A DNA stretch of 35,225 bases from Frankiaceae bacterium (lineage in GTDB: Bacteria; Actinomycetota; Actinomycetes; JAFAQI01), in assembly GCA_025929315.1 (NCBI GenBank), contig JAICMI010000012.1, positions 1 through 35,225 on the forward strand, read 5' to 3'. Positions 402 to 35,225 of the stretch are shown piece after piece. Position 1 is the first letter of the stretch, and each line of letters begins with the position of its first letter. The notes below the pieces were generated by a model. That model was not told where the DNA came from. It searched no databases and saw only the letters and a list, made by a program, of their open reading frames with translations. The position numbers and the translations under genes are program-made.

Positions 402-1602
<1,201 letters not shown>

Positions 1603-1606
1603 GCCG

Positions 1607-2395: not shown

Positions 2396-2405
2396 GGCTG
2401 AGCCG

Positions 2406-2960
2406 ATGACGTTGGGTCCCGCCGTGCGTCGGTTGATGGATGCGTCGGTTCTGACGAAAGCCGATGCCGACGAGCTCGCGGTCGCGCTCAAGGAGATCGA
2501 GGCCATCGCCGCACGGCTCGAAGATGCCGGCATCAACGAGACGTTGCCCTTCTGGGACAAGGAGAGCATGCGTCAGGGCGTGCGCCCGTTCAGTCCCGTC
2601 ATCGGCGAAGCCAATCCGATCGCGCCACCGATGACCGTGCGCGTCGTGGGCGACGCCGTCGTCGGCGAGTGCACGATGCGCCCCATCCACGAAGGACCGC
2701 CCGGAGCGGTGCATGGCGGCTGGGTCGCCACGTTGCTGGACCAGCTGCTGGGTCACGCCACTGCAGCCAGCGGCAATCCGGGCTTCACGGCCGAGCTCAC
2801 GGTGCGCTACCGCCGGCCGACCCCCTACGGCGTCCCACTGACGTTGCGCGGCCGCACCGACGACGTCGACGGCCGACGGGTGCGGGCAAGTGCAGAGATC
2901 GTCGTCGACGATGTCGTCACCGCCGAAGCCACCGCGCTGTTTCTCAAGCCACGGACCTGA
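2406..2960 (+). CDS. Hotdog-fold acyl-CoA thioesterase (PaaI-like)
   Basis: A 184-residue protein. The C-terminal 110 residues form a hotdog domain with the PaaI/4HBT hallmark HGG at 103-105 (GAVHGGWVATLLDQLLGH, with Asp112 as a possible catalytic acid) followed by the beta-strand ELTVRYRRPTPYG. The N-terminal 60 residues are a helical extension of the kind seen in actinobacterial PaaI-like proteins. The ATG is 10 nt after the echA19 stop, so it is the third gene of the sterol operon. A likely role is release of CoA from stalled or by-product acyl-CoA; the substrate cannot be read from sequence. Its last 17 bp overlap the convergent reductase gene. Confidence 0.82.
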   Translation: MTLGPAVRRLMDASVLTKADADELAVALKEIEAIAARLEDAGINETLPFWDKESMRQGVRPFSPVIGEANPIAPPMTVRVVGDAVVGECTMRPIHEGPPGAVHGGWVATLLDQLLGHATAASGNPGFTAELTVRYRRPTPYGVPLTLRGRTDDVDGRRVRASAEIVVDDVVTAEATALFLKPRT

Positions 2961-3820: not shown

Positions 3821-6800
3821 TCAGCCGTGAGCCGCCTGCAGCCTTTCGGCCTCGGCGATGTAGCGCACTGCACCTATCTCCTTGAACAACTCGAGCGCTC
3901 GCTGCGTATGACTTCCGCCTGCGCGCAGTCGGCAGTACATCTCAGCGACCCGGAAACCCCTCTCGCCGAGCATCTCCGCAGCGCCGGCGGCGTCCGATCC
4001 GAGGATCGCGCGGGCGACCCCAGCCCACCACGGGATGTCGATGAGCGCGGCCACTTCCGCAGCCTGATCGGTCCGTCCCAGATCAACGGCGAGCCACATG
4101 TAGGTCGATATGTGTGCGCTGGAGGCAAGGACCGATGGCAGTGCGGACATCGTGTGCAGCTCATCGAACTGAGCGGCGGCCTCCGGCGCGCGTCCCGCGC
4201 CGAACAGGACGGACGTCCGCACCACCATGGCGGGGACAATGACCTGCGGGTCACCCGCCCGCCGGGCAGCCGCAAGCGCCCGATCGACCTCGCTCAGAGC
4301 CTCCGGGGTCTGTCCGCGAGCCGACAGCATGTCCGCGTGAATACGTCGCGTTTCGATGTCGACGTAGTCGCCCTCACGATCGTCCAACAACAGCTCGTCG
4401 AGGCCGGCGGTGGTGAGGGCCCAGTCGCCGGCTAGAAAGGCAAGCTCTGCTCTGCCGGCTCGGTACCAGAGCCGGTTGTATTTGCTGCCGCCGAACTCGC
4501 GCAGGTAGTCAGCCCATTCCTCGCCGAGCTGCGTGGCCATCTTCAGGTTACCGGTGCGCATGTAGGAGACGATGAGATTGTTCCGCGTGTGGTTCATCTC
4601 GTGGATCGCCCGCGCGTCTCGAGCAATCTCGTAGGCACGTTGCTGCTCGGCGAAACCGTCCTCGTCGCCGAGCGCGACTCGCGAGCCTCCCCGGGCGTCG
4701 AGCAACCTCGACAACAGGTCCGGCCGGTTCATCTGCTCGACGAGCGGTAACGCCTCGGCGATGGTCACCAATGCCACCTCGTGCTCGTCCCCGACGTATT
4801 GCTCGACGGCTCTGACGACAAGGGCTTCGACGCGCACATCCGAGTCGGGCAATCCCACCAGGATCTCGTCGACGGTGTTCCGCCACGCGCGCGTGCCCGC
4901 GGCGTCGCCTCGGAACCAAGTCTCGCGAGCGAGCAGCAGGCCCGCGCGGGCGGCCAGCTCCGGCTTGCCCTCTTCTCGTAGACGTGACAATGCCTCGACC
5001 AGGAGCTTCTGACCCGTACGGTCCCACTCGCAGGCCGCCGCGCCCGCCGACAGCAACAGCTCGCTGCGCTGCGGGTCACTCGCCGGAGTGAGTTCGAGCG
5101 CGGTTGTGAAGAAGCGGCTCGCTTGGAGGTAGGAGCCGAGACCAAATGCTCGGTCGCCGGCCCGGCGAAATGCTGCAATTGCGGCCGGCTCGAGCTCCGC
5201 AGTGTCAGCCCCCGCCGCACGCCCGAACTCCAGCGCCTCGGCGTAGTGATGGGCCAGGAGTTCGGCGTGATCGTCCGGTCTGCCGAGTGCGGAAATCCAC
5301 TCCGCGGCCTGTCGATGGCTGCGGCTTCGGTCGGCGCGTGGAATCTGCCCGTAGGCGACGTCGCGTGCGAGCGCATGCCGAAAGGCGAACTCGGTCTCGC
5401 CCTCGACCGACGATCGGCGCTCGCGCCTCACGAACTCACGCTTCTCGAGCTCGCGCAACGTCTGCTCGACCTCGGGAAATGGTCGTCCCGCCAGTGCGGC
5501 GACCGCACCGGACCAGAAGACGGTGCCGATGACCGAGGCTGCCTGGAGAAGCTGTTTGTCGCCGACGGCAAGACCGTCGAGCCGAGCCGCGATGATGCCC
5601 TGAACCGTGTCCGGGATGCGGTCGTCGGCGACGCCGCGATCGGAAACCATCCGTGCGAACTCCTCGGCGAACAAGGGGTTGCCGGCAGCGCGTTCGACCA
5701 GCGCTTGCTGCACGGACGCATCGAGGACCGGTACGCCGAGGACGTCGAGGACCAACCGCGCAGTGTCCTGGGCAGTGAGCGGGGCCAACGAAAGCACCAA
5801 GGCATTCGCCATGCCCGCGCCCCAGGTGGGGCGGCGAGTCAGCAGCTCGGGCCGGGCCGTGCCGACCAGGAGCACCGGCAGGCCACGCAGCCACTCCCCG
5901 AGCTCGGCGAGGAAGTCGAGCAAGCCCTCGTCGGCCCAGTGAAGATCTTCGACGACGAGCACAAACGGGCCGCGCTCGGCGAGCGCTTCGAGGAAACGAC
6001 GCCACGCCGGGAAGGTCTCCTCGTTGGAGACGCCGCCCTCGCCGGAAGCCAGTCCGAGCAGTGGTCGCAACCGTCGGGCCACCCAATCCGCGTCACTCCC
6101 CTGAATCAGGCTGCGCGTGACCTCGTTGAGCTTCGACTCCGCGACCTCCGGCGTGTCGCTGTCGAGGATCCCGGTCTCTGCCTTCACGATCTCGGTCAGC
6201 GCCCAGAAGCTCACGGCGTCGCCGTAAGCGAGACAACGTCCATGTCGCCATGTGACGAGGTCCGAATCGGCGTCGACAACGCGCGCAAGCTCGGCCACGA
6301 GCCGCGACTTGCCGGCACCGGGAACGCCGACGATCGTCACCTGCTGCGGCTCGTGCTCCTGTCGCGCACGTTCGAATGCCTCGCGCAGAAGGTTGAACTC
6401 GCGATCGCGGCCCACGAACTCCGTCGTGGAGGTGCGGTCGACGCCATGCGCGGCGTTCGCGCGCGCCCCGCGTGCTTCGAAAACGACGACAGGCTCGGAC
6501 TTGCCCTTGGCGACGATCGGCTCCACGTCGACGTAGTCGATGACGCTGGCGGTCGCCCGGTGCGTGACTGCGCCGACCAGCACGCCGTTGATCGGAGCGG
6601 CCGACTGGATCCGCGAGGCCGTGTTGATGACGTCGCCCGCCACCATCCCCTCGCCGCGATGAGGGTCCGCATCGAGCGACACCAAGGCCTCTCCGGTGTT
6701 GACGGCAATGCGTACCTCGACGTCCGGCTGCGCGGCGGCCCACTCACAGATCGCGAGTGAGGCTCGGACAGCACGCTCCGGATCGTCCTCGTGCGCAGTG

Positions 6801-7000
6801 GGCGCACCGAACACAGCCACCACCGCATCGCCGATGAACTTTTCGACCGTCCCGCCGAAACGCTCGAGCTCGTCGCGCACCCGGTCGTGGTAGGGCGAGA
6901 GCAGCGCACGCACGTCCTCCGGGTCCATCGCTTCGGACCGACCGGTGAAACCGACGAGGTCGCAAAAAACGACGGAGACGACCTTGCGCTCCTGCCGCAT
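3821..7000 (-). CDS. Class III adenylate/guanylate cyclase-AAA ATPase-TPR signalling protein
   Basis: A 1059-residue protein. Residues 5-175 are a class III nucleotidyl cyclase domain: metal aspartates D14 (FCDLVGFT) and D58 (EKFIGDAVVAVFG), transition-state N126 and R130 in GDVINTASRIQ, and a C-terminal KGKSEP strand. All key residues are present, so catalysis is plausible. Residues 195-460 are a STAND/AAA_16 NTPase with Walker A GVPGAGKS at 225-232 and Walker B VLVVEDLHWAD at 347-357. The rest is a helical, TPR-like repeat region. No transmembrane segment was seen. Such proteins are thought to couple ligand or partner binding on the repeats to cyclase output. The ATG is 19 nt after the DinB-like gene. 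A homologue begins at 33571. Confidence 0.9.
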   Translation of the reverse strand: MRQERKVVSVVFCDLVGFTGRSEAMDPEDVRALLSPYHDRVRDELERFGGTVEKFIGDAVVAVFGAPTAHEDDPERAVRASLAICEWAAAQPDVEVRIAVNTGEALVSLDADPHRGEGMVAGDVINTASRIQSAAPINGVLVGAVTHRATASVIDYVDVEPIVAKGKSEPVVVFEARGARANAAHGVDRTSTTEFVGRDREFNLLREAFERARQEHEPQQVTIVGVPGAGKSRLVAELARVVDADSDLVTWRHGRCLAYGDAVSFWALTEIVKAETGILDSDTPEVAESKLNEVTRSLIQGSDADWVARRLRPLLGLASGEGGVSNEETFPAWRRFLEALAERGPFVLVVEDLHWADEGLLDFLAELGEWLRGLPVLLVGTARPELLTRRPTWGAGMANALVLSLAPLTAQDTARLVLDVLGVPVLDASVQQALVERAAGNPLFAEEFARMVSDRGVADDRIPDTVQGIIAARLDGLAVGDKQLLQAASVIGTVFWSGAVAALAGRPFPEVEQTLRELEKREFVRRERRSSVEGETEFAFRHALARDVAYGQIPRADRSRSHRQAAEWISALGRPDDHAELLAHHYAEALEFGRAAGADTAELEPAAIAAFRRAGDRAFGLGSYLQASRFFTTALELTPASDPQRSELLLSAGAAACEWDRTGQKLLVEALSRLREEGKPELAARAGLLLARETWFRGDAAGTRAWRNTVDEILVGLPDSDVRVEALVVRAVEQYVGDEHEVALVTIAEALPLVEQMNRPDLLSRLLDARGGSRVALGDEDGFAEQQRAYEIARDARAIHEMNHTRNNLIVSYMRTGNLKMATQLGEEWADYLREFGGSKYNRLWYRAGRAELAFLAGDWALTTAGLDELLLDDREGDYVDIETRRIHADMLSARGQTPEALSEVDRALAAARRAGDPQVIVPAMVVRTSVLFGAGRAPEAAAQFDELHTMSALPSVLASSAHISTYMWLAVDLGRTDQAAEVAALIDIPWWAGVARAILGSDAAGAAEMLGERGFRVAEMYCRLRAGGSHTQRALELFKEIGAVRYIAEAERLQAAHG

Positions 7001-7019: not shown

Positions 7020-7571
7020 TCACGACGTCATGCCCTGCAGTCCGACCAATGCCCGCCCGTGCTCCACCTCGCCCATATGTCGCAATCCGTGCTGGTAGAT
7101 CCAGCACTCGATCGCGTCTGACCTGGTCATTCCGGCCTCGCCGGCGACGCGCGCGCTGAACGTCGACGCGATCTGCGGGGGAAACGGTCGTTGAACGATG
7201 ACCTCGTCGAGCGCCGCCTGGTCGAGCGTTCCGAGCCACGCCTCGGTGCGGGCGAACACCCGCGACTGGTAGTCGCAGTAGACGTCGTAGTCGCCGATCC
7301 GCTGCTCGACCATCTCGTCCACGGTCTTGTGCTTGCCGTGGTCGGGGATCGCCAGCCCCATCCGCTTGCCCAATGCGTCGTCGTACACGAGATCCCCGGC
7401 GCCGAGCATCGTGGCTGACCCGTCCTCTATCTGCGCCATGTGAAACAGAGAGAACGCGATGGGCAACACCGGCTTTCGCTCGACATGGTTGACCTGCTCG
7501 ACCGTCATCGACGCGACCGCGTCCTCCCAGAGTGAGTGAAGCGCGCGCATCCGTCGCTCCAATGACGTCAT
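7020..7571 (-). CDS. DinB-superfamily protein (putative metal-dependent hydrolase/transferase)
   Basis: A 183-residue helical protein with the DinB/YfiT three-histidine pattern: H44 (FSLFHMAQIEDGS) and, near the C-terminus, H161 and H165 in YQHGLRHMGEVEHGRALVG. In this superfamily the histidines bind a divalent metal, and characterised members act as thiol-dependent transferases or hydrolases; no substrate can be assigned here. The ATG overlaps the sulfatase stop by 4 nt (ATGA), so the two are translationally coupled. The close link to a sulfatase suggests a supporting role in the same process, which is inference. Confidence 0.75.
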   Translation of the reverse strand: MTSLERRMRALHSLWEDAVASMTVEQVNHVERKPVLPIAFSLFHMAQIEDGSATMLGAGDLVYDDALGKRMGLAIPDHGKHKTVDEMVEQRIGDYDVYCDYQSRVFARTEAWLGTLDQAALDEVIVQRPFPPQIASTFSARVAGEAGMTRSDAIECWIYQHGLRHMGEVEHGRALVGLQGMTS

Positions 7572-9793
7572 TCCTTGGCCAGCTCGGTCTGAGCGATGCT
7601 GCGCACATCAGCGGCATCCGCCTTGCTGCGGATCGTGATCGTCACGCTCTCGATCACACCACTGAATGCGAACGGCGCGAAGTAGTCGTCCGTGACCGGC
7701 GACAGCGCATCCCGCCCGATGTCCATGCCGGTCGACCCCAGCATGCGCACCAACTGCGCGATCTGCACCGACCCCAAGTCCGTGCCATCGCAGCCAACGG
7801 TCAACGTCCCGCCCGATCCTTCTCGGTCGAAGCGCGCGACCAGCTCGTGTCGACCCGCCGTCAGGGTCACGGGCGCGCTGGCGCGGTGCCGGGTGCCCAA
7901 CGCGTTGTACTCGAACTGCAGTGCGCCGTTCTGGATGAAGAACGAGTGACCCACGTTGTGACTGCCACGCGCATAGAGCACGCCTTCGGGCTTGTCCTCG
8001 ACCTGCACCACCGCCGTGATGGTCCACGCCCGACCCCCCAGTGGTGGGCACGCGTCGGCGGGAATGTGCGAGACCGGCGGCCGATAGACGTATTCCTTTC
8101 GCGCGTGCACGGTGCCAGGCCGCGGCACGCCGCCGAACAGCTCGATCGTCCGGTCGTCCAACGGGAGTACGCCGTACTCACCTGCCTGCACCCACCACAG
8201 GTCGATCAGCTCACGCAGCTTCTGCGGGTTGCGGTCGGCAAGGTCATGACACTCGGAGAAGTCGCTGTCGAGGTGGTAGAGCCCCCACTCGTCGTCGTCG
8301 AACGGCTGGCCCTGCTCGTGGTAGGTCGTGATCTTCCAGCCATCCGCCCAGAGCCCGCGATGGCCCATCTGCTCGAAGTACTGGACGGATCGCGTCGTAG
8401 CTTTCGGATCGTTGAACGTCGGCACGATGCTGGTGCCGTGCAGCGGCAGCTGCTCGACGCCGTTGTGCTGCGCATGCCACTGCGCTCCAGTCACCTCGAG
8501 GATGGTGGGCGTGATGTCGACGGCGTGGCAGAACTGGTGTCTGAGTCCCGAATCCTTGAGGCCAGCCGGCCAGTGCACGACGAGCGGATCACGCACGCCG
8601 CCGCCGTAGGTGTTCTGCTTGTACCAGCGAAGCGGCGAGTTGCCCGCCTGCGCCCAGCCCCACGGATAGTTGCTGTGCGAGTGCGGGCCGCCGATGTCAT
8701 CCAGCCGGTTGGCGACGATGTCGTCGATGTCCTCCCAGCGCGCGTTGAAGAAGCTGAACTCGTCCATCACACCGAACGGCCCGCCCTCCCGCGACGCTCC
8801 GTTGTCGGACAGCACCATCAACAACGTGTCGTCGAGCAGTCCGCGCTGCTCCAGGAACTCGGTGAGCCGTCCGATCTGCGCATCGGTGTGCTCGAGCATC
8901 GCGGCGAAAGCCTCTTGCAGGCGCGCGGCGAACTTGCGTTGGTTGTCGGTGAGCTCGTCCCACGCAGGCACGCCGGGGTTGCGCGGTGCCAACGTCGTTC
9001 CCGGCGGTACGACGCCCATCTCCACCTGACGCGCGAACCACCGCTCACGCGCGGCGTCGTACCCGTCGTCGAACTGGCCTCGCCACCGATGCAGGTAGTC
9101 CTCGGGCGCCTGGTGCGGAGCATGAGTGGCGCCGAACGCGAGATAGAGGAAGAACGGTCGGTCGGGACGGATCGACGTGAGATCGCTGATCCAACCGATG
9201 GACTTGTCCACGATGTCTTCGGACACGTGGGTCCCGGGGGGGTCGATGTGACCGTTGTCGCTCGTCAGCTCCGGTTGGAACTGGTCGGCCTCCCCTTGCA
9301 GGAATCCGTAGAAACGGTCGAAGCCCTTCTGCACCGGCCAGTTGTGATGCGGTCCGGCAGCCGAACACTCCTCCATCGGCGCGAGGTGCCACTTGCCGGC
9401 CGCGTAGGTCGCGTAGCCCTTTGCCCGCAACAGCTCCGCAACTGTCGCGGCGTTGGGGCTGATGCCACCCCGCATGTGCGGGAAGCCGGTGTTCCAGTTG
9501 GACACGCCGCGCATCCCGACGGCGTGGGGGTTGCGACCGGTCAACAAGGCGGCACGCGACGGCGAGCACAGCGCCGTCGTGTGGAAGCTGGTGTAACGCA
9601 GTCCGTCCGCGGCGAGCTTGTCGATCGCCGGAGTTGCGAGGTCCGACCCATAGCAACCGAAATGCGCAAATCCGGTGTCATCGAGAACGATGACGACGAC
9701 GTTGGGGCCACCGGTCCAGAGCGGATCGGGCCACCACGGGTCCGAGTCGTGAATGGTGCGGCCGATCTTGCCCTTGAACTCCACGGCGGGCAT
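7568..9793 (-). CDS. Type I sulfatase (formylglycine-dependent), long form
   Basis: About 741 residues. The ATG at 9793 is used; an in-frame TTG at 9799 is an alternative, and neither has a clear Shine-Dalgarno. The sulfatase signature CSPSRAALLTGR starts at about residue 76; this cysteine is normally converted to formylglycine. Metal-binding aspartates occur in VVVIVLDDTGF and VLSDNGAS. The core resembles large bacterial arylsulfatases, and the last 170 residues form a beta-rich C-terminal domain. No signal peptide is evident, suggesting a cytoplasmic enzyme. It heads the minus-strand sulfatase-DinB-cyclase-NmrA string and diverges from the DUF1330 operon across a perfect inverted repeat. 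No formylglycine-generating enzyme is in the window. Confidence 0.92.
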   Translation of the reverse strand: MPAVEFKGKIGRTIHDSDPWWPDPLWTGGPNVVVIVLDDTGFAHFGCYGSDLATPAIDKLAADGLRYTSFHTTALCSPSRAALLTGRNPHAVGMRGVSNWNTGFPHMRGGISPNAATVAELLRAKGYATYAAGKWHLAPMEECSAAGPHHNWPVQKGFDRFYGFLQGEADQFQPELTSDNGHIDPPGTHVSEDIVDKSIGWISDLTSIRPDRPFFLYLAFGATHAPHQAPEDYLHRWRGQFDDGYDAARERWFARQVEMGVVPPGTTLAPRNPGVPAWDELTDNQRKFAARLQEAFAAMLEHTDAQIGRLTEFLEQRGLLDDTLLMVLSDNGASREGGPFGVMDEFSFFNARWEDIDDIVANRLDDIGGPHSHSNYPWGWAQAGNSPLRWYKQNTYGGGVRDPLVVHWPAGLKDSGLRHQFCHAVDITPTILEVTGAQWHAQHNGVEQLPLHGTSIVPTFNDPKATTRSVQYFEQMGHRGLWADGWKITTYHEQGQPFDDDEWGLYHLDSDFSECHDLADRNPQKLRELIDLWWVQAGEYGVLPLDDRTIELFGGVPRPGTVHARKEYVYRPPVSHIPADACPPLGGRAWTITAVVQVEDKPEGVLYARGSHNVGHSFFIQNGALQFEYNALGTRHRASAPVTLTAGRHELVARFDREGSGGTLTVGCDGTDLGSVQIAQLVRMLGSTGMDIGRDALSPVTDDYFAPFAFSGVIESVTITIRSKADAADVRSIAQTELAKE

Positions 9794-9800
9794 CCTCAAG

Positions 9801-10927: not shown

Positions 10928-11304
10928 GAGGGAGCATCCGCCGCGAAGTACGGATTGCTTGTCCGGCGGACAAGGTCTGGACGCTCGTCGGTGACGCTGT
11001 CCGGATCCCGGACTGGTTCCCCGGCATCGTCGACGCGGTTGTCGACGGCGACACTCGCACGATCACGACGGGGTCGGGCATGCAGCTGCCGGAACAGTTC
11101 ATCGCCGACCCCTTGCAACGCCGGTTCCAATATCGGATCACCGGCATGAAAGAACACGTGTCGACCCTTGACGTCATCGACCTCGGCGACGACACATGTC
11201 TCGTCATCTACAGCGTCGACGCCGACCCCAACACCATGGCGCTGGTCATCGGGGGCGCGGCCGGCAACGCGCTCGAACACCTGCGCACGCTGATGGAGAC
11301 CTGA
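10924..11304 (+). CDS. SRPBCC (START/polyketide-cyclase-like) lipid-binding family protein
   Basis: A 126-residue protein of the SRPBCC fold: N-terminal beta-strand REVRIACPADKVWTLVGD, then the helix-turn RIPDWFPGIVDAVV, beta-strands TRTITTGSG and RRFQYRI, and the long C-terminal helix GGAAGNALEHLRTLMET. These helix-grip proteins bind hydrophobic ligands in a central cavity, and some are cyclases or aromatases. It is coupled to its neighbours by GTGA (TetR stop) and TGATG (sulfatase start) overlaps. In this operon it may bind the hydrophobic part of the sulfatase substrate or product, which is inference. Confidence 0.82.
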   Translation: MRGSIRREVRIACPADKVWTLVGDAVRIPDWFPGIVDAVVDGDTRTITTGSGMQLPEQFIADPLQRRFQYRITGMKEHVSTLDVIDLGDDTCLVIYSVDADPNTMALVIGGAAGNALEHLRTLMET

Positions 11305-12833
11305 TGGGCCGCAAGATCCTGTTCGTCACAACCGACCAGCAGCGCTACGACACCCTCGGCTGCAACGGCGGCACAGTCGCACGCACGCCGGTCGTCGACG
11401 CGCTCGCCGCCGCCGGGATCCGCTACGAGCGCGCCGTTCCGCAGTCGGTCGTCTGCATGCCGTCGCGGTCAACGATCCTCACCGGCCAGCACCCGTCCAC
11501 GCACGGTGTCTGGATGAACGGCGTACCCCTGCCGGCCTCCGCACCGTCGGTCGCCGACGTCCTGCACGACGCCGGCTATCGCACTGCGCTCATCGGCAAA
11601 GCGCATTTCGAACCGTTCCTCGACCCGTTCCTGCGGTTCCCGGAGAACGCGCTCGCGCGCTCCGGCGTGACGCCACCCGGCGGCACCCACCGCGGCTTCG
11701 AATACCTCGAGATGGCGACGCACACCAGTGTCGGGCCGATGCATTACGCGCAGTGGTTGATGAAGGAGCATCCGGAAACGGTCGGCATGTTCTACAACGT
11801 CCTCGACAACGCCCTGCAGGTGAACGCGGACGGCGGTGGCGAGAGCGGTGCGCCGCAGGTGAAGGTCAATGAGATCCCGCGCGAGTGGTACCACACCGAC
11901 TGGGTTGCCGACCGCACGATCGCCTGGCTCGACTCTCTCGACACGGACGTCGACTGGTTCTGCTGGATGAGCTTCCCCGACCCGCATCACCCCTGGGACC
12001 CGCCGCAGTCGGAGATGGGTCGCATCGACTGGCGCGACGTACCCCTTCCGGCCGGTTATCCGGAGCGCGCGGACGAACGCGAGTCGCTGCTCGACGACAA
12101 GCCGCGGCACTGGCGGATGTGGTACGACGGCGAGCTCGTCTCCAACTACGAAGCGCCGGCGCACTGGGTGCCGGCAACGATGACGGCCGAGCAGGTGCGT
12201 GAGGTCAACGCGCGCAACGCGGTCGAGTGCGAGCTCATCGACGAGGCGCTGGGTCGCGTGCTCGGCGCGATCGAGAGTCGCGGCTGGACCGGCGACACCG
12301 ACGTCATCTTCACGACCGACCATGGGGAGCTACAGGGCGACTTCGGCCTTCTCTTCAAGGGTCCGTATCACGTGGACGCGCTGATGCGGTTGCCGTTGAT
12401 CTGGCGTCCGGCGCCGAGTGCAACTGTGACGCCGTCGGTGGTGTCGCAGCCGGTCGGGTTGGTCGACCTCGCGCCAACCTTCTGTGCGATCGCCGGCGTC
12501 GCGGCTACCGACTGGATGCAGGGCGACGCGTTGCCGGTGACCACCGGCGCAGGCGATGCGGTGCTCACGGAGTGGGACAGCGAGCTGTTCGGCGTCGACG
12601 TGCACGTTCGGACCATCACCAGGGATCAGTGGGTGTTGTCGGCGTACACACGCGGAACGGTGCACGACGGCAGTGAGGGCGAGCTCTATGACCTGAGCCT
12701 CGACCCGTTGCAGCGCAAGAACCTGTGGTCCGATCCCGCGCGCGCGGCACTGCGCGACGACCTGCTCGCGGAGTTGTGGGACAAGCAACCGCCGCCGCGC
12801 GTACCGCGGCTGCAGCTGGAGGCTCCGGTATAG
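11304..12833 (+). CDS. Type I sulfatase / phosphonate-monoester-hydrolase-like enzyme
   Basis: A 509-residue protein; its ATG shares one base with the preceding stop. The signature CMPSRSTILTGQ begins at C51, the predicted formylglycine. Metal ligands are suggested by TTDQQRYDTLGC near the N-terminus and FTTDHGELQGDFGL in the C-terminal half. The opening FVTTDQQRYDTLG and the overall size are closer to the phosphonate monoester hydrolase/arylsulfatase subgroup than to the long sulfatase at 7568-9793, so the two are not recent duplicates. No signal peptide is visible. It closes the DUF1330-TetR-SRPBCC operon. Substrate unknown. Confidence 0.92.
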   Translation: MGRKILFVTTDQQRYDTLGCNGGTVARTPVVDALAAAGIRYERAVPQSVVCMPSRSTILTGQHPSTHGVWMNGVPLPASAPSVADVLHDAGYRTALIGKAHFEPFLDPFLRFPENALARSGVTPPGGTHRGFEYLEMATHTSVGPMHYAQWLMKEHPETVGMFYNVLDNALQVNADGGGESGAPQVKVNEIPREWYHTDWVADRTIAWLDSLDTDVDWFCWMSFPDPHHPWDPPQSEMGRIDWRDVPLPAGYPERADERESLLDDKPRHWRMWYDGELVSNYEAPAHWVPATMTAEQVREVNARNAVECELIDEALGRVLGAIESRGWTGDTDVIFTTDHGELQGDFGLLFKGPYHVDALMRLPLIWRPAPSATVTPSVVSQPVGLVDLAPTFCAIAGVAATDWMQGDALPVTTGAGDAVLTEWDSELFGVDVHVRTITRDQWVLSAYTRGTVHDGSEGELYDLSLDPLQRKNLWSDPARAALRDDLLAELWDKQPPPRVPRLQLEAPV

Positions 12834-27929: not shown

Positions 27930-28784
27930 TCAGGCCTCCCACAGTGAACGGACGTCGTCCGCTACCGCCGCCGCCTGGGCCCGCCCGGCCTGCGCCGCGG
28001 GCCGCGCAGTCGCGGGGTCGAGCGGGTTGGCGCCGAACGCTGCCAACGAGTCCTCGTCCGGACGGATGGCCAGCGTGTTCTTGCGCTTCAGCACCTTCTT
28101 CGATGCCTTGTCGACGTCGGGGTCGAGGACAGTGAGGTCTTCGACGGGTGCGAGCACGAGCACGATGTCGTAGTCGGCGACGAGGTCGACGTTGGTCGAC
28201 GACCTGACCCCGCCATCGATGTAGCGACGGCCGTCGATCGTCATCGGCGGCCAGATGCCGGGGACAGCACAGCTGCCCGCGACGACGTCGACGAGGTCGG
28301 CGCCGTCCTCCGCCGTGAAGACGCGCTCCTCACCCGTCGAGGCATCCACCGTCACAATGCGCAGGTCACGCCCGGTCGGCCACTTGCGCTCGGGCAGCCG
28401 CGCCTCGATCACCTCGCGTCGGCGCCGCTCCGGCACCGTTGACGAGGCCAGCGCGAAGCGGCCGATCGCCGCGCGCAGCTCCTGCCCGGGCTCGGTCTGG
28501 CTCATCAGCGACGTCCAGTCCGCGACCATCTTCTCGAGATCGACCTCGACCGGGATCTCAGCCGATTCGCCGGTCGGGAAGGCGTGCCGGTCGTGAAGCT
28601 CCGCCAGCGGCGCACCGCTGGTGACCTGCGCGGCAACCGCGGACCCCGCTGACGTGCCGACGATGACGTCCGCGTCGAGGACGTCGACGCCGGCCTCCGC
28701 CAGCCCGAACAGCAATCCCGTCTCCCATGCGATGCCGGCGACGCCGCCGCCGCCGAGGACCAGTGCTCGTGACTTTGCGCCCAT
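27930..28784 (-). CDS. Patatin-like phospholipase/acyl hydrolase
   Basis: A 284-residue protein with the oxyanion loop LGGGGVAGIAWETG at 10-23, nucleophile S45 in VGTSAGSA and the catalytic Asp in the D-G-G motif at 190 (RYIDGGVRSSTN). The Ser-Asp dyad is intact. Family enzymes release fatty acids from phospholipids or other acyl esters; in a sterol/lipid operon cleavage of sterol esters or membrane lipids is conceivable but not shown. No signal peptide. The ATG overlaps the preceding stop by 1 nt (TGATG). Confidence 0.9.
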   Translation of the reverse strand: MGAKSRALVLGGGGVAGIAWETGLLFGLAEAGVDVLDADVIVGTSAGSAVAAQVTSGAPLAELHDRHAFPTGESAEIPVEVDLEKMVADWTSLMSQTEPGQELRAAIGRFALASSTVPERRRREVIEARLPERKWPTGRDLRIVTVDASTGEERVFTAEDGADLVDVVAGSCAVPGIWPPMTIDGRRYIDGGVRSSTNVDLVADYDIVLVLAPVEDLTVLDPDVDKASKKVLKRKNTLAIRPDEDSLAAFGANPLDPATARPAAQAGRAQAAAVADDVRSLWEA

Positions 28785-29602
28785 CAGATGACCCTTCCAG
28801 CCAGGTCGCGCACAGCGGCTACAGCGTCGCCGCGCGTCGGTAGCAGGAAGACTGCCCGCTCCACGCCCATTGAGTCGTAGTGCGCGATCACGTCACGGTC
28901 CGGACGGACGAGGTAGAGCGTGACCGGCGGCACCGGTTTGCCGGCGGCGTCGGCCATGTCCCTCAGCTGCGCCAGCCGGTCGGAGAGCTTGTCCTTCGAC
29001 GGCATCGGCATCCAGCCACCCGCGTAGTCGATCGCGTGCTGCATCGCGCGTTTGCCGCTGCCGCCGACCCAGACCCGCATCGGGGACTGCACGGGCTTGG
29101 GCCATTGCCACGACGGCTCGAGCCGGGCGTGCTTGCCGTCGTACGACGCGACGTCGTTGCTCCAGAGCTGTTGCATGAGCTCGACGCGCTCCCGCATCAC
29201 GTCCCAGCGCTCGCTGAACTCGACCCCGTGATGCGCCAGCTCTTCGACGTTCCAGCCGGCGCCGACACCGAACAGCAGCCGTCCGCCGGAGAGGACGTCG
29301 AGGGACGACACCTCTTTGGCGAGCACGATCGGGTCCCGCTCGACGACGAGGCAAACACCTGTCCCGAGACGCAGCCGCTCGGTGACCGCCGCCGCCGCGG
29401 TCAGCGCGACAAACGGATCCAGCGTGCGCGCGTATTCGTCAGGCAGCTCGCCGCCCATGGGGTACGGCGTGCGCCGCGACGTGGGGATGTGCGTGTGCTC
29501 GGCGACGAACAGCGACTCGAAGCCTGCGTCCTCGGCCGCGCGAGCCACATCGCGCACATCACTCGTCAGATCGCTCGCGAACAGCGCGACGCCGAGGTGC
29601 AT
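28784..29602 (-). CDS. LLM-class F420-dependent oxidoreductase
   Basis: A 272-residue TIM-barrel protein of the luciferase-like monooxygenase family, starting at the ATG at 29602. Family features are GVALFASDLTSDVRDVARAAEDAGFESLFVAEH, the strand RLRLGTGV, LDVLSGGRLLFGVGAGWNVEEL and VWVGGSGKRAMQHA. In actinobacteria most such proteins use F420, with roles in oxidising alcohols or reducing enoates; the cofactor is inferred from the subfamily. It sits 10 nt after the zinc ADH gene and overlaps the patatin start by 1 nt. Confidence 0.87.
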   Translation of the reverse strand: MHLGVALFASDLTSDVRDVARAAEDAGFESLFVAEHTHIPTSRRTPYPMGGELPDEYARTLDPFVALTAAAAVTERLRLGTGVCLVVERDPIVLAKEVSSLDVLSGGRLLFGVGAGWNVEELAHHGVEFSERWDVMRERVELMQQLWSNDVASYDGKHARLEPSWQWPKPVQSPMRVWVGGSGKRAMQHAIDYAGGWMPMPSKDKLSDRLAQLRDMADAAGKPVPPVTLYLVRPDRDVIAHYDSMGVERAVFLLPTRGDAVAAVRDLAGRVI

Positions 29603-29612
29603 GTGCGCCCTC

Positions 29613-30698
29613 TCAGTCGAAGGTGATGACCTGGCGGATGACGTCACCGGCCGACAGCGCACCGAACGCGTCGTTGATGTCGTCGAGGGCCAGCCGCCGC
29701 GTGATCATCCGCTCGAGGTCAAGCTGGCCGGACCGCCAGAGTGCAAGCAGTCGGGGGAAGTCGCGGCGGATGTTGGCCGAGCCGTAGTAGGTGCCACGGA
29801 GGTTCTTCTCGTCGTAGAACAAGTCGAACGCCGAGAGCTCGACCATGTCCTCGGCCCGCCCGACACCGACGACGACAGTCGTGCCGCCCCGCCGCGTGGC
29901 GCTGTAAGCCGCCTTGATGGTCTGCGACCGGCCGACCACCTCGAAGGCGTAGTCGAAGCCGCTGCCGCCGGTGAGCTCGCGCAACGCGTCGGGCAGCTGG
30001 TCGGGCGTGACCGCATGGGTGGCGCCGAACTGCTTGGCCCAGCCGAGCTTTGCCTCGACCATGTCCACCGCGAGGATCGTCGCCGCTCCTGCGATACGCG
30101 CGCCCTGGATCACACTGATACCGACACCGCCGCAGCCGAACACCACGACACTCGACCCGGGCTCGATCTTGCCGGCGTTGATGGCGGCGCCGACGCCGGT
30201 CATCACGCCACAGCCCAGCAACGATGCGATGTCGTAGGGGATGTCAGGGTCGATCTTGACCGCGCCCTGTTCGAGCAGGATGACCTCTTCGGCGAAGGTC
30301 CCGGCGCCGGCCATGCCGAACGTCGGCGTCGTCCCGTCGAACATGAAGTGCGCATCGCTGAACGCATTGATCATGTAGGCCATGCACAGCTGCGGCTGGC
30401 CGTTGACGCACTCTTTGCAGGCACCGCACTGCGGCGACCAGCAGACGACGACATGGTCGCCTTCGGCGAGCGATGTCACTCCCGCGCCGACCTCGACGAT
30501 CTCGCCCGCGCCTTCGTGTCCGAGGACAGCGGGAACGGCGACAGGAATCGTCCCGTTCATCGCCGACAGGTCGGAGTGACAGACGCCGGTCGCCTTGATG
30601 CGGATGCGGACCTTGCCCGCGCCCACCGCCGTCGTCGTCACGTCGTCGCGGACGTCCAGCTTGTCGTCGCCGACGTTGTGCAGGACAGCGGCCTTCAT
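29613..30698 (-). CDS. Zinc-dependent alcohol dehydrogenase (class III/NDMA-like MDR)
   Basis: A 361-residue MDR alcohol dehydrogenase. The catalytic zinc is bound through C40 (GVCHSD), H61/E62 (LGHEGAG) and a later cysteine in LLGCGVMTG. The structural zinc has four cysteines, C91, C94, C97 and C105 (CGACKECVNGQPQLC), and the NAD loop is VVVFGCGGVGISVIQGA. It resembles mycobacterial zinc ADHs of the Rv0761c/Rv3086 group. The ATG shares a base with the ferredoxin stop, and both lie behind a KstR-type box. Oxidation of a primary sterol or lipid alcohol made by the P450 is an attractive but untested role. Confidence 0.9.
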   Translation of the reverse strand: MKAAVLHNVGDDKLDVRDDVTTTAVGAGKVRIRIKATGVCHSDLSAMNGTIPVAVPAVLGHEGAGEIVEVGAGVTSLAEGDHVVVCWSPQCGACKECVNGQPQLCMAYMINAFSDAHFMFDGTTPTFGMAGAGTFAEEVILLEQGAVKIDPDIPYDIASLLGCGVMTGVGAAINAGKIEPGSSVVVFGCGGVGISVIQGARIAGAATILAVDMVEAKLGWAKQFGATHAVTPDQLPDALRELTGGSGFDYAFEVVGRSQTIKAAYSATRRGGTTVVVGVGRAEDMVELSAFDLFYDEKNLRGTYYGSANIRRDFPRLLALWRSGQLDLERMITRRLALDDINDAFGALSAGDVIRQVITFD

Positions 30699-30910
30699 CA
30701 GATGCTCTGCTTCTTCTCGAGCAAGAGGGCCCGTTTCGGACAGGAGTCGACGGCCTCACGGGCACGCGTCGCAAGCTCGCCGTCGGCATCCTCGATGAGG
30801 ATGTGCAGCACTTCGTCGTCGTCCAGCTCGAACATCTCCGGAGCGACGCCGACGCAGACGGCGTTGGCTTCGCACTCGTTGTGGTCCACGACCACGCGGA
30901 ACTCACCCAC
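30698..30910 (-). CDS. fdxD: [3Fe-4S] ferredoxin, FdxD-like
   Basis: About 70 residues from a GTG at 30910. A GTG at 30895, preceded by GGTGA at 7 nt, is an equally good start. Cluster ligands are C13 and C19 in NECEANAVCVGVAPEMF and C57 in DSCPKRALLL. The CxxAxxC...CP pattern with three cysteines denotes a [3Fe-4S] cluster, as in actinobacterial ferredoxins serving P450s. The sequence resembles M. tuberculosis FdxD (Rv3503c), a KstR-regulon member. It leads a six-gene operon behind a KstR-type box. Electron supply to the CYP125-like P450 is likely from shared regulation, but not proven. Confidence 0.88.
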   Translation of the reverse strand: MGEFRVVVDHNECEANAVCVGVAPEMFELDDDEVLHILIEDADGELATRAREAVDSCPKRALLLEKKQSI

Positions 30911-30916
30911 GGCGAA

Positions 30917-30945
30917 AGTAGAACACGTTCTGTTTTCGGAGGCAA
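30917..30945 (-). promoter_or_regulatory. Predicted promoter of the ferredoxin operon
   Basis: On the minus strand TTGCCT (30945-30940) and TCTACT (30922-30917) are separated by exactly 17 bp. The -10 overlaps the right half of the KstR-type box at 30919-30932. Prediction from spacing; the elements are imperfect. Confidence 0.4.
30919..30932. promoter_or_regulatory. KstR-type operator, site 3 (ferredoxin operon)
   Basis: TAGAACACGTTCTG matches TnnAACnnGTTnnA at all fixed positions except the last base, with perfect AGAAC/GTTCT arms. It lies 9 bp upstream of the ferredoxin GTG and overlaps the predicted -10. It is the same motif as at 388-401, 30 kb away. Confidence 0.8.
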
Positions 30946-30980
30946 AACAGCCCCCGACCAACCGCGGCCGGGGGCTGTTT
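30945..30980 (-). terminator. Strong intrinsic terminator of the G1 peptidase gene
   Basis: The arms AAACAGCCCCCG (30945-30956) and CGGGGGCTGTTT (30969-30980) form a perfect 12-bp stem with a 12-nt loop. On the minus strand the hairpin runs into TTTT just after the peptidase stop. It insulates the ferredoxin operon from read-through. Confidence 0.88.
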
Positions 30981-30992
30981 CGCGCTATCAGA

Positions 30993-31787
30993 TCAGGGTG
31001 CTGCGCAGGTCTGCGCGTAGGCACAGACGTTGAAGCTCTGCCCGTCCGCGGCCAGCGCCGACGGTGTGGCCTCGTTGACCAGACCAGGGCCCATCGCGAT
31101 GCTCACCGGGTTGCCCTGCGCGATCGTGTGCGTGCCGGACGCGTCGGTGAAAGTGCTGGTCGGACCGAAGTGGTTGACGCCGGTGTTGGCCGGGATCGTC
31201 TGTACGACGAGCGTGGGCGCCTCGAAGATCCACTCCGCCGATGACTCGGTCGAGGCGTAGCTGATGTTCTGCTGCCAGGACCAGTGACCCGCGTCGCTCA
31301 GCGAGACCGACCAGAGGTTGCTGCCGACCAGGTGGATGTCGACCGTGACGACGTCGCCGGCATTGACGGTGCACGTGGGATCGCCGGTGCAGCCGCTGGT
31401 GATCGGCGTCTCGCTGGCGGGGAGGATCTCGTACCAGGCGTAGTTGCCCTGGACGGCGTCCTCGGAGGTCCCGGCCTGGATCAAATCGGACGAGGAGTAA
31501 CCGCCGATGCCGGTCCAGTTGGCGGCGAACCCGGGCGGCACCGGGTTGACCGAGGGAACGGTGAACGTCGACGTCACGCCTGACACCCCGGACCCGGGCG
31601 CGGTCGCGTATCCGGACCAGTTGAGGCTGGTGGTGTCGGCGTTCTCCTTGGGCAGGATCTGCCCCTGATGGGCCGGGATCAGCCGGCCGTGGCTCGCGAC
31701 CGTCGCCGCCCCCGCGGCGGTTGATGCGAGAGATGCCGAGGCGATTCCGGCTACGGCGATGAGCAGGGTTGCGGTGCGACGTCGCAC
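30993..31787 (-). CDS. Secreted glutamic peptidase, family G1 (eqolisin/peptidase A4)
   Basis: A 264-residue protein from a GTG preceded by AAGGTGG. A signal peptide (ATLLIAVAGIASASLASTAAGA) precedes a propeptide-like stretch. The G1 fold starts at SLNWSGYATAPG. The catalytic pair is Q104 in WTGIGGYSSSDLIQAGT and E185 in STESSAEWIFEAPT, the same positions as the Gln/Glu dyad of fungal eqolisins; two cysteines at C133 and C139 may pair. G1 peptidases cut proteins at acid pH outside the cell. The gene stands alone, with its own terminator. Confidence 0.87.
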   Translation of the reverse strand: MRRRTATLLIAVAGIASASLASTAAGAATVASHGRLIPAHQGQILPKENADTTSLNWSGYATAPGSGVSGVTSTFTVPSVNPVPPGFAANWTGIGGYSSSDLIQAGTSEDAVQGNYAWYEILPASETPITSGCTGDPTCTVNAGDVVTVDIHLVGSNLWSVSLSDAGHWSWQQNISYASTESSAEWIFEAPTLVVQTIPANTGVNHFGPTSTFTDASGTHTIAQGNPVSIAMGPGLVNEATPSALAADGQSFNVCAYAQTCAAP

Positions 31788-31878: not shown

Positions 31879-32712
31879 ATGCCTCTCCGGATGGACCCGG
31901 CGGAGCCCGAGCCCGACTGGATGCTGCGGCTCGATGCGGCTGAGGGCATCGCCACGCTGACGCTCGACCACCCGGACAAGCTCAACGCCTGGTCGTGGGA
32001 GGCGTCGCGACAGCTCGGCAAGCGCGCCGACCAGATCCGGTTCGACGACAGCGTCCGCGTCGTCGTCGTCCGGGCCGAAGGACGAGCGTTCTGCGCCGGC
32101 GTCGACCTCGGCATGCCCGAGGACCGGGTCACCGGCCGGTCACCCGCGGAGAAGGTGCGCAACTACTACGAAGGCATCCGGTGGGTGCACGAGCGCTTCC
32201 ACGCGTTCTCCGACCTCCCCCAGCCCATCGTCGTCGCCGTGCAGGGCTACTGCCTCGGCTTCGGCTTCGAGTTCGCGTTGATGGCCGACATCCGGGTGTG
32301 TGCGGACGACGCGATCTTCGCGCTGCCCGAGGCGACCGTCGGCGTAGGTGTCGACGCAGGTGGAGACCTGCGCCTCGCCCGCGAGGTCGGCGCCGGTTGG
32401 GCAAAGATGCTCGCGCTGACCGGCCGCCGGATCGACGCCGCCACCGCCGAACGGCTCGGTGTCGTGCAAGAGGTCGTCGCCCGCGACGCGCTCGACGACA
32501 CCGCCTACGCGATCGCGCGCGAGATCCGCGACAACGCACCCCTCGCCGTACAGAGCATCAAGCGCTCCATCAACGCGTTGGCCGACCGTGGTCTGGCCGA
32601 CGCATTGCGGTTCGAGGCGATGAGCGCATCCGTCGAGTTCGTCTCCGAGGACATGCCCAAGGGCTATGCCGCCAAGGCCGCAAAGCAACCGGTCGAGTTC
32701 GAGGGCAAGTAG
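31879..32712 (+). CDS. Crotonase-family enzyme, enoyl-CoA hydratase or dienoyl-CoA isomerase
   Basis: A 277-residue crotonase with oxyanion segments FCAGVDLGMP and GYCLGFGFEFALMADIRV. Acid/base positions are E131 and E151 (PEATVGVGVDAGGDLRL). D159 falls where delta3,5-delta2,4-dienoyl-CoA isomerases have their third catalytic acid, whereas ordinary hydratases have Pro/Gly there. Isomerase activity is therefore possible. Ten nt downstream comes a 2,4-dienoyl-CoA-reductase-like SDR, the natural partner for unsaturated acyl-CoA breakdown. No KstR-type box was seen upstream; two GGGCTAAC repeats 26 bp apart (31819, 31845) precede the gene. Confidence 0.85.
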   Translation: MPLRMDPAEPEPDWMLRLDAAEGIATLTLDHPDKLNAWSWEASRQLGKRADQIRFDDSVRVVVVRAEGRAFCAGVDLGMPEDRVTGRSPAEKVRNYYEGIRWVHERFHAFSDLPQPIVVAVQGYCLGFGFEFALMADIRVCADDAIFALPEATVGVGVDAGGDLRLAREVGAGWAKMLALTGRRIDAATAERLGVVQEVVARDALDDTAYAIAREIRDNAPLAVQSIKRSINALADRGLADALRFEAMSASVEFVSEDMPKGYAAKAAKQPVEFEGK

Positions 32713-32722
32713 CGATGCCTTT

Positions 32723-33574
32723 ATGACCGGGCTGCCGCGGCCGCCGCAGGCCGGTACGCCGATGCTGCCGACCGACACGTTCGCCGGCCAGGTCGTGCTG
32801 GTGACAGGCGGCGGCACCGGGCTCGGCAAGGCCATCGCCGTCGAGTTCGCGCGTGCAGGTGCCGCGGTCGCGGTTGCCAGCCGATCGGCTGAACACAGAC
32901 AAGACGGCGTCGCAGCAGTCGAAGCGGCGGGCGGCAAGGCGACCGGTGTCGAGGTCGACGTGCGCGAGCCGGAGTCGACGGCCGCTGCGTTCGACGCGGC
33001 AGAGTCCGCGCTGGGACCGGTCACGGTGCTCGTGAACAACGCCGCCGCCAACTTCCCCATAGCTGCCGCAGACCTATCGCCCAACGGGTGGCGTGCGGTT
33101 GAGCGCATCGTTCTCGACGGCACGTTCTTCTGCTCGCAGGAGATGCACCGCCGCGCCGTCGCCAACGGGCTGGCCGGGTCGATCGTCAACATCGCCACGA
33201 CCGCGGCGCTCGCCGGCGGTCCGGGCATGGCGCACTCAGCCGCCGCCAAAGCCGGTGTCATCTCCCTGACGAAAACACTCGCCGTGGAGTGGGCGCCCGA
33301 CGGTGTGCGCGTCAACGCGATCGCGCCGGGGCTGTTCCCCCACGACGACCTGCCCGACGCCATCAAGGCAGCACGCGACCCCAGCGTCGACGACACCCGG
33401 CAGCCCGCCGGGCGCGTCGGCCAACCGCACGAGCTCGGCTGGGCGGCCACCTGGCTGTGCTCGCCGTACGCGTCCTTCGTCACCGGCCATGTGCTCGTCG
33501 TCGACGGTGGCAACTGGCTACGACGCGACTTCGCGATGCCCCCGGTGAGATCGATCAGCGACCAGCTCCCATGA
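32723..33574 (+). CDS. 2,4-dienoyl-CoA-reductase-like short-chain dehydrogenase
   Basis: A 283-residue classical SDR fold: cofactor loop VTGGGTGLGKAIA, NNAAAN at 105-110, then AHSAAAKAGVISLTKTLAVEWAPDGVRVNAIAPG. The lysine K176 is present, but the usual Tyr four residues before is Ser172. The same substitution occurs in 2,4-dienoyl-CoA reductases, whose HSAxAKA(G/A)V and AVEW segments also match. The R-S motif after the second strand (VASRSAEHR) suggests NADPH. It starts 10 nt after the crotonase gene and its stop overlaps the cyclase ATG by 4 nt. Confidence 0.85.
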   Translation: MTGLPRPPQAGTPMLPTDTFAGQVVLVTGGGTGLGKAIAVEFARAGAAVAVASRSAEHRQDGVAAVEAAGGKATGVEVDVREPESTAAAFDAAESALGPVTVLVNNAAANFPIAAADLSPNGWRAVERIVLDGTFFCSQEMHRRAVANGLAGSIVNIATTAALAGGPGMAHSAAAKAGVISLTKTLAVEWAPDGVRVNAIAPGLFPHDDLPDAIKAARDPSVDDTRQPAGRVGQPHELGWAATWLCSPYASFVTGHVLVVDGGNWLRRDFAMPPVRSISDQLP

Positions 33575-35225
33575 ACGTCTGTCCTGCGTGCACGAAAGAG
33601 GTCGCCGGCGAGTTCGCGTTCTGCCCCTTCTGCGGCGCCGCGCTTGCCGCACCCGTGGAACGCCGCGAAGTCCGCAAGGTCGTCACCGTGCTCTTCTGCG
33701 ACATCACCGGATCGACGGAGCTGGGCGAGCGTCTCGACCCGGAGGCTCTGCGGCTGTTGCTCGCCCGCTACTTCGAGCGGATGAAGCACATCATCGAAAG
33801 CCACGGTGGGTCGGTCGAGAAGTTCATCGGAGATGCCGTCATGGCCGTCTTCGGTGTGCCGACCGTGCACGAGGACGACGCGCTGCGCGCCCTTCGCGCG
33901 GCCGTCCAGATGCGCGATGCGTTGCCGGACCTCGGCATCGAAGGCCGCATCGGTGTGATGACCGGCGAGGTGGTCACCGGCACCGAGGAGCGACTGGCGA
34001 CCGGCGACCCGGTGAACGTCGCGGCGCGGCTCGAGCAGGCCGCACAGCCCGGAGAGATCATCATCGGACACGAGACGTTGATGTTCACCCGGGACGCCGC
34101 CGACGTGGACCCGATCGCGCCGTTGACCGTCAAAGGCAAGAGCGAGCCGTTGGTTGCCTACCGGCTGTTGACCGTGCACGGCGACGAAGGGCTGGCCCGA
34201 CGGCTCGATACGCCGCTGGTCGGACGGACGACAGAGCTGCGCCGACTCCAGGACGCCTACGACCAGGCGACGCGGGACGGCTCGTGCCAGCTGTTCACGC
34301 TCCTGGGAAGTGCCGGTGTCGGCAAGTCGCGGCTCACCGCTGAGTTCCTCACCTCGCTCGACGGCGCCCGTATCGTCCGCGGCCGCTGCCTGCCCTATGG
34401 CGAGGGCATCACCTACTGGCCCGTCGTCGAGATCATCAAGCAGCTGCCCGACGTCGACCTGGACGCCGCCGCGAGCCTTGGCCTGGAAGCGGTCCTCAAC
34501 GGGACCACCGGGAGCTCCACCGAGCAAATCGCGTGGTCGTTCCGCAAGCTGCTGGAGGCACATGCCGCCAACGGTCCGCTGGTCTGCGTCTTCGACGACG
34601 TGCACTGGGGCGAGGAGACCTTCCTCGATCTCGTCGAGTCCGTCGCCGATCTGTCGAGAGGAGCGCCGATCCTGCTGCTCTGCGCGGCCCGTCCGGAGCT
34701 GCTCGACCGACGTCCCGGGTGGGCGGGCGGAAAGGTGAACAGCACCAGCGTGCTGCTCGAGCCACTCGGCCCCGGGGAAGCTGCCGCGATGGTCGCGAGC
34801 CTCGCCGTTGCGGACGCCGACCTGTCGGCACGCATCTGCGAGTCCGCCGAAGGCAATCCGCTCTTCGTCGAGCAGATGGTCGCGCTGATCAAGGAGTCGG
34901 GCCGGACCGACGTCACCGTGCCGCCCACGATCTCCGCGTTGCTGACCGCCCGCCTCGAACAGCTCGACGACACGGAACGACGCGTCCTCGAACGGGGCGC
35001 CGTCGAGGGCCGAATCTTCCACCGCGGCGCCGTCCAGGCCCTCGGCCCCGAGGAGAGCCAGCTCATCACCCGGCTCACGTCTCTCGTCCGCAAGGAACTT
35101 GTGCGACCGGACAAGCCGCTCTTCGCCGGCGACGACGCGTTCAGGTTTCGGCACATGCTCATCCGTGACGCGGCGTACGACGCCATGCCCAAGGCGACGC
35201 GAGCCGACCTGCACGAGCGGTTCGC
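33571..35225 (+). CDS. Zinc-ribbon class III cyclase-AAA ATPase, N-terminal part (cut by window end)
   Basis: The first 551 codons, open to the window edge. Residues 4-21 hold a zinc ribbon (CPAC...CPFCG). The cyclase domain follows: FCDITGSTELGER with the first metal Asp, EKFIGDAVMAVFG with the second, GDPVNVAARLEQAA with the catalytic Asn and Arg, and KGKSEPLVAY. Then comes an AAA_16 NTPase with Walker A LGSAGVGKSR and Walker B VCVFDDVHWGEE. All cyclase residues are present. It resembles the protein at 3821-7000, which lacks the zinc ribbon. The ATG overlaps the SDR stop (ATGA), placing the cyclase in a lipid-catabolic operon. Confidence 0.9.
   Translation, partial: MNVCPACTKEVAGEFAFCPFCGAALAAPVERREVRKVVTVLFCDITGSTELGERLDPEALRLLLARYFERMKHIIESHGGSVEKFIGDAVMAVFGVPTVHEDDALRALRAAVQMRDALPDLGIEGRIGVMTGEVVTGTEERLATGDPVNVAARLEQAAQPGEIIIGHETLMFTRDAADVDPIAPLTVKGKSEPLVAYRLLTVHGDEGLARRLDTPLVGRTTELRRLQDAYDQATRDGSCQLFTLLGSAGVGKSRLTAEFLTSLDGARIVRGRCLPYGEGITYWPVVEIIKQLPDVDLDAAASLGLEAVLNGTTGSSTEQIAWSFRKLLEAHAANGPLVCVFDDVHWGEETFLDLVESVADLSRGAPILLLCAARPELLDRRPGWAGGKVNSTSVLLEPLGPGEAAAMVASLAVADADLSARICESAEGNPLFVEQMVALIKESGRTDVTVPPTISALLTARLEQLDDTERRVLERGAVEGRIFHRGAVQALGPEESQLITRLTSLVRKELVRPDKPLFAGDDAFRFRHMLIRDAAYDAMPKATRADLHERF

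Follow-up and report, generated by a model that had tools for sequence, protein, structure and literature searches.

What do a crotonase-fold protein and an SDR, encoded one directly behind the other on an actinomycete contig, do together, and on what kind of substrate? The pair lies in the window, by which I mean the whole stretch of 35,225 nt analysed here (Frankiaceae bacterium, GCA_025929315.1, contig JAICMI010000012.1, positions 1-35,225 of the forward strand), in a genome of 2.65 Mb that is spread over 179 contigs and 68% complete. A first-pass annotation of this DNA had proposed a module of a dienoyl-CoA isomerase and a 2,4-dienoyl-CoA reductase acting on polyunsaturated acyl-CoAs, an interpretation that is plausible in outline, wrong in assuming a standard DECR1-like active site and too narrow on the substrate. 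The strongest new results are that the module is conserved and that the window's SDR clade has lost the second active-site tyrosine. The reading that I prefer, with a probability of about one half and judged from sequence, is an isomerase plus NADPH-dependent dienoyl-CoA reductase module in which the reductase site would be eroded to a Lys/Asp-based one. The two genes are indeed 10 nt apart, since the crotonase ends at 32712 and the SDR begins with an ATG at 32723 that agrees with the N-termini of its orthologs (a longer in-frame ATG lies at 32666), and Pfam finds ECH_1 in the former and adh_short_C2 in the latter. The features discussed below are as follows.

28784..29662, minus strand: F420-dependent LLM-class oxidoreductase (TIGR03619, 271.7 bits, cut-off 166.9)
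29613..30698, minus strand: zinc alcohol dehydrogenase, nearest the NDMA-dependent type (TIGR03989, 322 bits, below the cut-off of 440)
30698..31024, minus strand: single-cluster ferredoxin, divergent, conserved near the pair within the family (PF13370/PF13459)
31879..32712, plus strand: crotonase-fold protein of 277 aa, predicted to be an acyl-CoA isomerase (or hydratase) (PF00378, 162 bits; triad E131/E151/D159)
32269..32271, plus strand: E131 codon of the crotonase (alignment)
32329..32331, plus strand: E151 codon of the crotonase (alignment)
32353..32355, plus strand: D159 codon of the crotonase, Gly in hydratases 5ZAI, 5XZD and 9QWV (alignment)
32713..32722, plus strand: 10-nt spacer, crotonase to SDR
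32723..33574, plus strand: DECR-like SDR, 283 aa, of a long, crotonase-partnered subfamily
33116..33118, plus strand: D132 codon of the SDR, DECR1 Asn148 position (Asp in 12 of 12 window-clade rows)
33203..33205, plus strand: A161 codon of the SDR, DECR1 Tyr199 position (Ala or Gln in the window clade)
33236..33238, plus strand: S172 codon of the SDR, position of the SDR catalytic Tyr and of DECR1 Ser210 (alignment)
33248..33250, plus strand: K176 codon, SDR catalytic Lys (invariant, 90 of 90 rows)
33341..33343, plus strand: H207 codon of the SDR, marker of the crotonase-partnered subfamily (His in 65 of 66 long and 0 of 24 short rows)

Purifying selection acts on the two genes alike: six within-family comparisons put dN/dS at 0.09-0.16 (crotonase) and 0.12-0.25 (SDR). 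The AlphaFold models of the two proteins, built on shallow alignments (10 and 7 rows), are poor (mean pLDDT 58 and 46).

A crotonase-SDR pair that recurs across phyla

An SDR ortholog is present in 8 of the 12 genomes examined of the window's family (the window included), and a crotonase abuts it in seven of these eight, the contig of the eighth ending at that very place. To look further afield, named genomes were scanned with two peptide patterns, and the best 80 of 584 loci comprise 56 with long SDRs that are 51-80% identical to that of the window (L031-L086) and 24 with shorter FadH-like SDRs that are 40-51% identical (L087-L110). Within these best 80, a crotonase lies within 3 kb of the SDR at 53 of the 56 long-SDR loci and at a single one of the 24 short FadH-like loci (L108), while chance would give roughly 5%, estimated from some 21 crotonases encoded in 2.65 Mb as the frequency with which a random gene has one within 3 kb, though the loci are not independent. 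In two of the three long-SDR misses (L073 and L076) the locus begins at the end of a contig, and only L047 is a real one. A search from the crotonase side (E 1e-75) finds the crotonase in 3 of 396 genomes of the phylum, not counting that of the window, and in each of these three the fetched region also contains the SDR. The paired module that had been proposed from a single locus thus recurs across phyla, and the pairing is widespread and real. The open-access PMC literature, represented mostly by titles and the openings of abstracts, yielded no report from these bacteria of a dienoyl module made up of a crotonase and an SDR.

Partners of other kinds also occur. In two genomes from a different family of the class, a Tyr-bearing SDR (L008, L009) lies beside what reads as a P450-like gene, and a second SDR copy in one of the two has a crotonase (34% identical) directly downstream. 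Genome G024 holds two long SDR paralogues (L118, L119), one near a P450-like gene and the other near a crotonase.

The acids of the crotonase

The crotonase presents E131, E151 and D159 in gap-free alignment with the Asp/Glu/Asp of ECH1, the motif around the third acid reading ...KEVDVGLAADVGTLQRL in 2VRE and ...PEATVGVGVDAGGDLRL in the window, so the assignment of D159 as the third acid of dienoyl-CoA isomerases stands. I take E131 to occupy the position of ECHS1 E144 and ECH1 D176, E151 that of ECHS1 E164 and ECH1 E196, and D159 that of ECH1 D204. Acids fill all three positions in ECH1 (2VRE, 1DCI) and in M. tuberculosis EchA21 (8SOY, an entry titled enoyl-CoA hydratase), also without gaps near the motif, although the first is Asp in 2VRE and 8SOY (D/E/D) and Glu in the window (E/E/D). 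There is no supported grouping of the window protein with these enzymes: the tree node that joins it to ECH1/EchA21 has weak support and the ECH1 rows are half filled. The hydratases/dehydratases 5ZAI, 5XZD and 9QWV share the two catalytic glutamates with the window but have Gly where it has D159, and it is hydratases and dehydratases that give the best PDB matches (131 bits to 5ZAI, as against 102 to 2VRE). The isomerase-like character claimed for this protein is therefore upheld as far as the ECH1-like triad goes, but both hydratase glutamates (E131, E151) are retained, so the window crotonase may be an isomerase or a hydratase.

Paralogues and partners sharpen the picture. Among 19 other crotonases examined in the window genome, Asp stands at position 159 in five, which rules out D159 by itself as the mark of an isomerase; the E151 plus D159 combination occurs in two, and the full [E/D/Q]-E-D pattern in one (L134). 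The 53 partner crotonases of the long SDRs (again from the best 80 of 584 loci) read E-E-D in 26 cases and Q-E-D in 25, the remaining two (L048, L057) reading otherwise. With the first hydratase glutamate replaced by Gln in 25 of the 51 [E/Q]-E-D partners, the pair that is retained is E plus D, and since the partners fall into at least two well-supported groups in the tree, a window type and a Q-E-D type, the SDR accompanies different crotonases that share this pair. An isomerase role fits the partner set overall better than hydration does, because the Q-E-D crotonases are without the first hydratase Glu, and by extension the window protein would be an isomerase as well.

The SDR and its departing active site

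A PDB sequence search places the SDR nearest to 3IMF (197 bits), an entry titled short chain dehydrogenase that I take to come from B. anthracis, followed by DECR1 (147 and 144 bits), glucose dehydrogenase (143 bits) and DECR2 (139 bits), and the top NCBIfam model is PRK07677, '2,4-dienoyl-CoA reductase', at 235.8 bits against a cut-off of 318; among the models shown, no dienoyl-CoA reductase or other curated cut-off was reached. The protein is thus DECR-like, as had been proposed. The accompanying notion that an SDR-type dienoyl reductase would be an exception in bacteria does not hold, since a curated NCBIfam model exists and 3IMF is bacterial; such enzymes are already known.

The E. coli flavoenzyme FadH, the usual bacterial solution according to the first-pass annotation, would be expected to catalyse the same step with an unrelated fold, and by Pfam the window protein is an SDR, not an OYE plus NAD(P)-binding flavoenzyme. 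With the flavoenzyme of genome G046 as the query, no full-length FadH/OYE flavoenzyme was found in the eight SDR-bearing family genomes; matches within the family cover the OYE half only, except for one second-half piece in G005, a genome without the SDR, and two other-family genomes each carry a full-length one. This query is FadH/OYE-like rather than proven FadH, as its best models are mycofactocin OYE_2 and BaiCD, both below cut-off.

For the active site I use what I take to be the DECR1 numbering, Asn148/Tyr199/Ser210/Lys214. These positions read N/Y/S/K in DECR1 and in 3IMF, D132/A161/S172/K176 in the window SDR and S/L/A/K in DECR2. Ser172 does replace the catalytic Tyr of SDRs (S-AAA-K176), the same in DECR1 and 3IMF, and the fold, the Lys and the Arg after beta-2 (S53-R54) are likewise shared with DECR1 (1W6U), 3IMF and PRK07677. 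The likeness to 2,4-dienoyl-CoA reductases that was drawn from this serine is incomplete, however: Ala stands in for the second DECR1 tyrosine and Asp for Asn148, and only the Lys of the four residues is invariably retained in the clade. The window SDR further departs from DECR1, 3IMF and PRK07677 in its crotonase partner, in falling below the PRK07677 cut-off and in H207, W240, N264 and R267, which mark a separate subfamily; the last three are each present in 64 of 64 long rows, while other residues prevail at their positions in the 24 short ones.

The alignment of 90 rows holds 66 long SDRs (12 of the window clade and 54 others) and the 24 short ones. In the tree, the crotonase-partnered SDRs are one clade (61 rows, support 100), within which the Tyr-less window clade is a single branch (11 rows, support 99). 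The loss of Tyr161 takes two changes for 12 rows, namely DECR2 and eleven window-clade rows, on a tree built without the three trait columns, so the window clade lost its second tyrosine in one event that is separate from that of human DECR2. All 12 window-clade rows have D132 and K176 (H171, N106 and N110 are invariant too), while position 161 is Ala in six and Gln in six, and position 172 is Ser in nine, Ala in two and Thr in one. The other 54 long rows have Tyr at 161 in all but one (Phe) and Ser at 172 throughout, and at 132 they carry Asn (39), Thr (9), Asp (5) or Gly (1), a position that needs 10 changes on the tree and at which one of the scan patterns, IVLDGTFF, favours Asp. As Asp132 is seen in Tyr-bearing relatives as well, the order suggested, tentatively in view of those 10 changes, is Asn to Asp before the loss of Tyr. 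DECR1 chemistry is then not simply transferable to the window clade, as read from the alignment, because the second Tyr is gone, Asp sits at the Asn148 position and Ser172 has become Ala or Thr in three members.

Human peroxisomal DECR2 (4FC6) is comparable, with no Tyr at either position and with the Lys and the His at K-5 kept, its own residues at the Tyr199/Ser210/Asn148 positions being Leu/Ala/Ser. Hua et al. reportedly found in 2012 that DECR2 is an active reductase in which Lys and Asp stand in for the Tyr-Ser pair. This Asp, presumably Asp137, aligns two residues before window D132; the window clade also keeps a Lys and an Asp, but its Asp sits at the Asn position.

Among the short SDRs, those of L087, L090 and L095 are bacterial sequences with a DECR1-like Pro preceding the Ser, and the two of them that were in the tree group at support 97 with human DECR1, which makes the three possible bacterial kin of the mitochondrial enzyme. 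L087 is titled a Klebsiella pneumoniae MAG but groups with a Myxococcota sequence and DECR1, and the title is probably wrong.

Proposed chemistry, its rivals and the substrate

In the preferred reading, the crotonase would shift C=C bonds, E151 and D159 together transferring the proton, and the SDR would pass a hydride from NADPH (a cofactor consistent with S53-R54) to a conjugated 2,4-dienoyl-CoA, working without the Tyr199/Asn148 pair of DECR1 through the invariant K176 and D132, possibly with H207. The crotonase may act before the reductase (3,5- to 2,4-dienoyl-CoA) or after it (3-enoyl- to 2-enoyl-CoA); in PMC12691678, SDR-type DECRs are described as delivering the hydride directly from NADPH to give a 3-enoyl-CoA that later requires an isomerase, so an isomerase adjoining the reductase would make sense on either side. 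The roles of D132 and H207, like the reactions and the cofactor, are hypotheses, and it counts against them that the clade has lost two of the four residues of the DECR1 active site and varies at a third.

Could this be an ordinary beta-oxidation pair, with the crotonase hydrating 2-enoyl-CoA and the SDR oxidising 3-hydroxyacyl-CoA? The two hydratase glutamates and the hydratase/dehydratase matches in the PDB speak for it, yet the SDR has neither the catalytic Tyr for alcohol/ketone chemistry nor a replacement tyrosine and is closer to the DECR type than to dehydrogenase SDRs, and the Gly of three aligned hydratases at the D159 position and the Gln at the first acid of many partner crotonases make this explanation very unlikely. 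Improbable as well is that the Tyr-less clade is no longer a reductase and has been recruited to isomerisation, to hydrolysis or as a structural partner of the crotonase, which would account for the lost Tyr161, the variable Ser172 (Ala 2 and Thr 1 of 12 rows), the change of Asn to Asp and the tight same-strand coupling to the crotonase; the Rossmann motif, S53-R54, N106 and K176 are nevertheless retained at low dN/dS, and human DECR2, reportedly an active reductase, is without the same residues.

The remaining rival keeps the module chemistry and moves it to a ring- or terpenoid/steroid-derived dienoyl-CoA. Here the neighbourhood matters: on all five family contigs that reach that far (L111-L115), the ferredoxin and the zinc alcohol dehydrogenase lie back to back with the pair, and the F420-dependent LLM oxidoreductase follows in four of them, the contig of L112 ending before it. 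At other loci, genes for P450, acyl-CoA ligase, an acyl-CoA dehydrogenase pair, Amidohydro_2, sulfatase and more SDRs and crotonases are among those nearby. The conserved ferredoxin, NDMA-type alcohol dehydrogenase and F420 oxidoreductase, together with the P450, ligase, paired dehydrogenases and Amidohydro_2 near homologous SDRs or pairs, favour such a substrate, but these neighbours differ among lineages and genomes of this kind commonly hold large catabolic families, so that I regard a restriction to ring or terpenoid/steroid compounds as doubtful. The linear polyunsaturated acyl-CoA first suggested is likewise not favoured by the ferredoxin, alcohol dehydrogenase and F420 oxidoreductase nearby, and an acid derived from an alcohol, a terpenoid or a ring would suit the gene context no less well than a linear fatty acid. 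A polyunsaturated fatty acid operon can be set aside, since a selection of 40 neighbour proteins at 18 loci proved mixed, with no fixed beta-oxidation operon.

Returning to the isomerase-reductase module, I would add one tentative extension, more speculative than the module itself: the window clade may represent a third kind of active site among SDR dienoyl-CoA reductases, in which Asn gave way to Asp and then Tyr and then Ser were lost, leaving Lys and Asp (plus His207), independently of human DECR2, within a crotonase-SDR module of Actinomycetota, Myxococcota and Pseudomonadota acting on non-fatty-acid dienoyl-CoA. If true, this would provide a natural SDR series (Asn/Tyr/Ser/Lys; Asp/Tyr/Ser/Lys; Asp/Ala or Gln/Ser/Lys; Asp/Gln/Ala or Thr/Lys) for probing how few catalytic residues suffice to reduce a dienoyl-CoA, and a testable function for a recurrent crotonase-SDR pair that now carries generic annotation.

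Several other genes of the window deserve mention. The window has an additional ORF at 30993-31787 (minus strand) between the ferredoxin and the crotonase, which is secreted-looking, has no Pfam match at 1e-6 and contains an NWSGY/GIGG stretch that, I presume, resembles glutamic (G1) peptidases. Downstream, the ATG of a guanylate-cyclase plus AAA_16 gene (33571-35225, plus strand) overlaps the SDR stop (ATGA); it is ruled out as part of the module because no homologue occurs in the nine extra regions fetched, and a long ORF at 3821-7000 (minus strand) resembles it. Sulfatase-family genes lie at 7568-9799 (minus strand) and 11196-12833 (plus strand), and at the opposite end of the window a second acyl-CoA group encodes, by Pfam, a thiolase, a crotonase and a 4HBT-type thioesterase consecutively (472-2960, plus strand).
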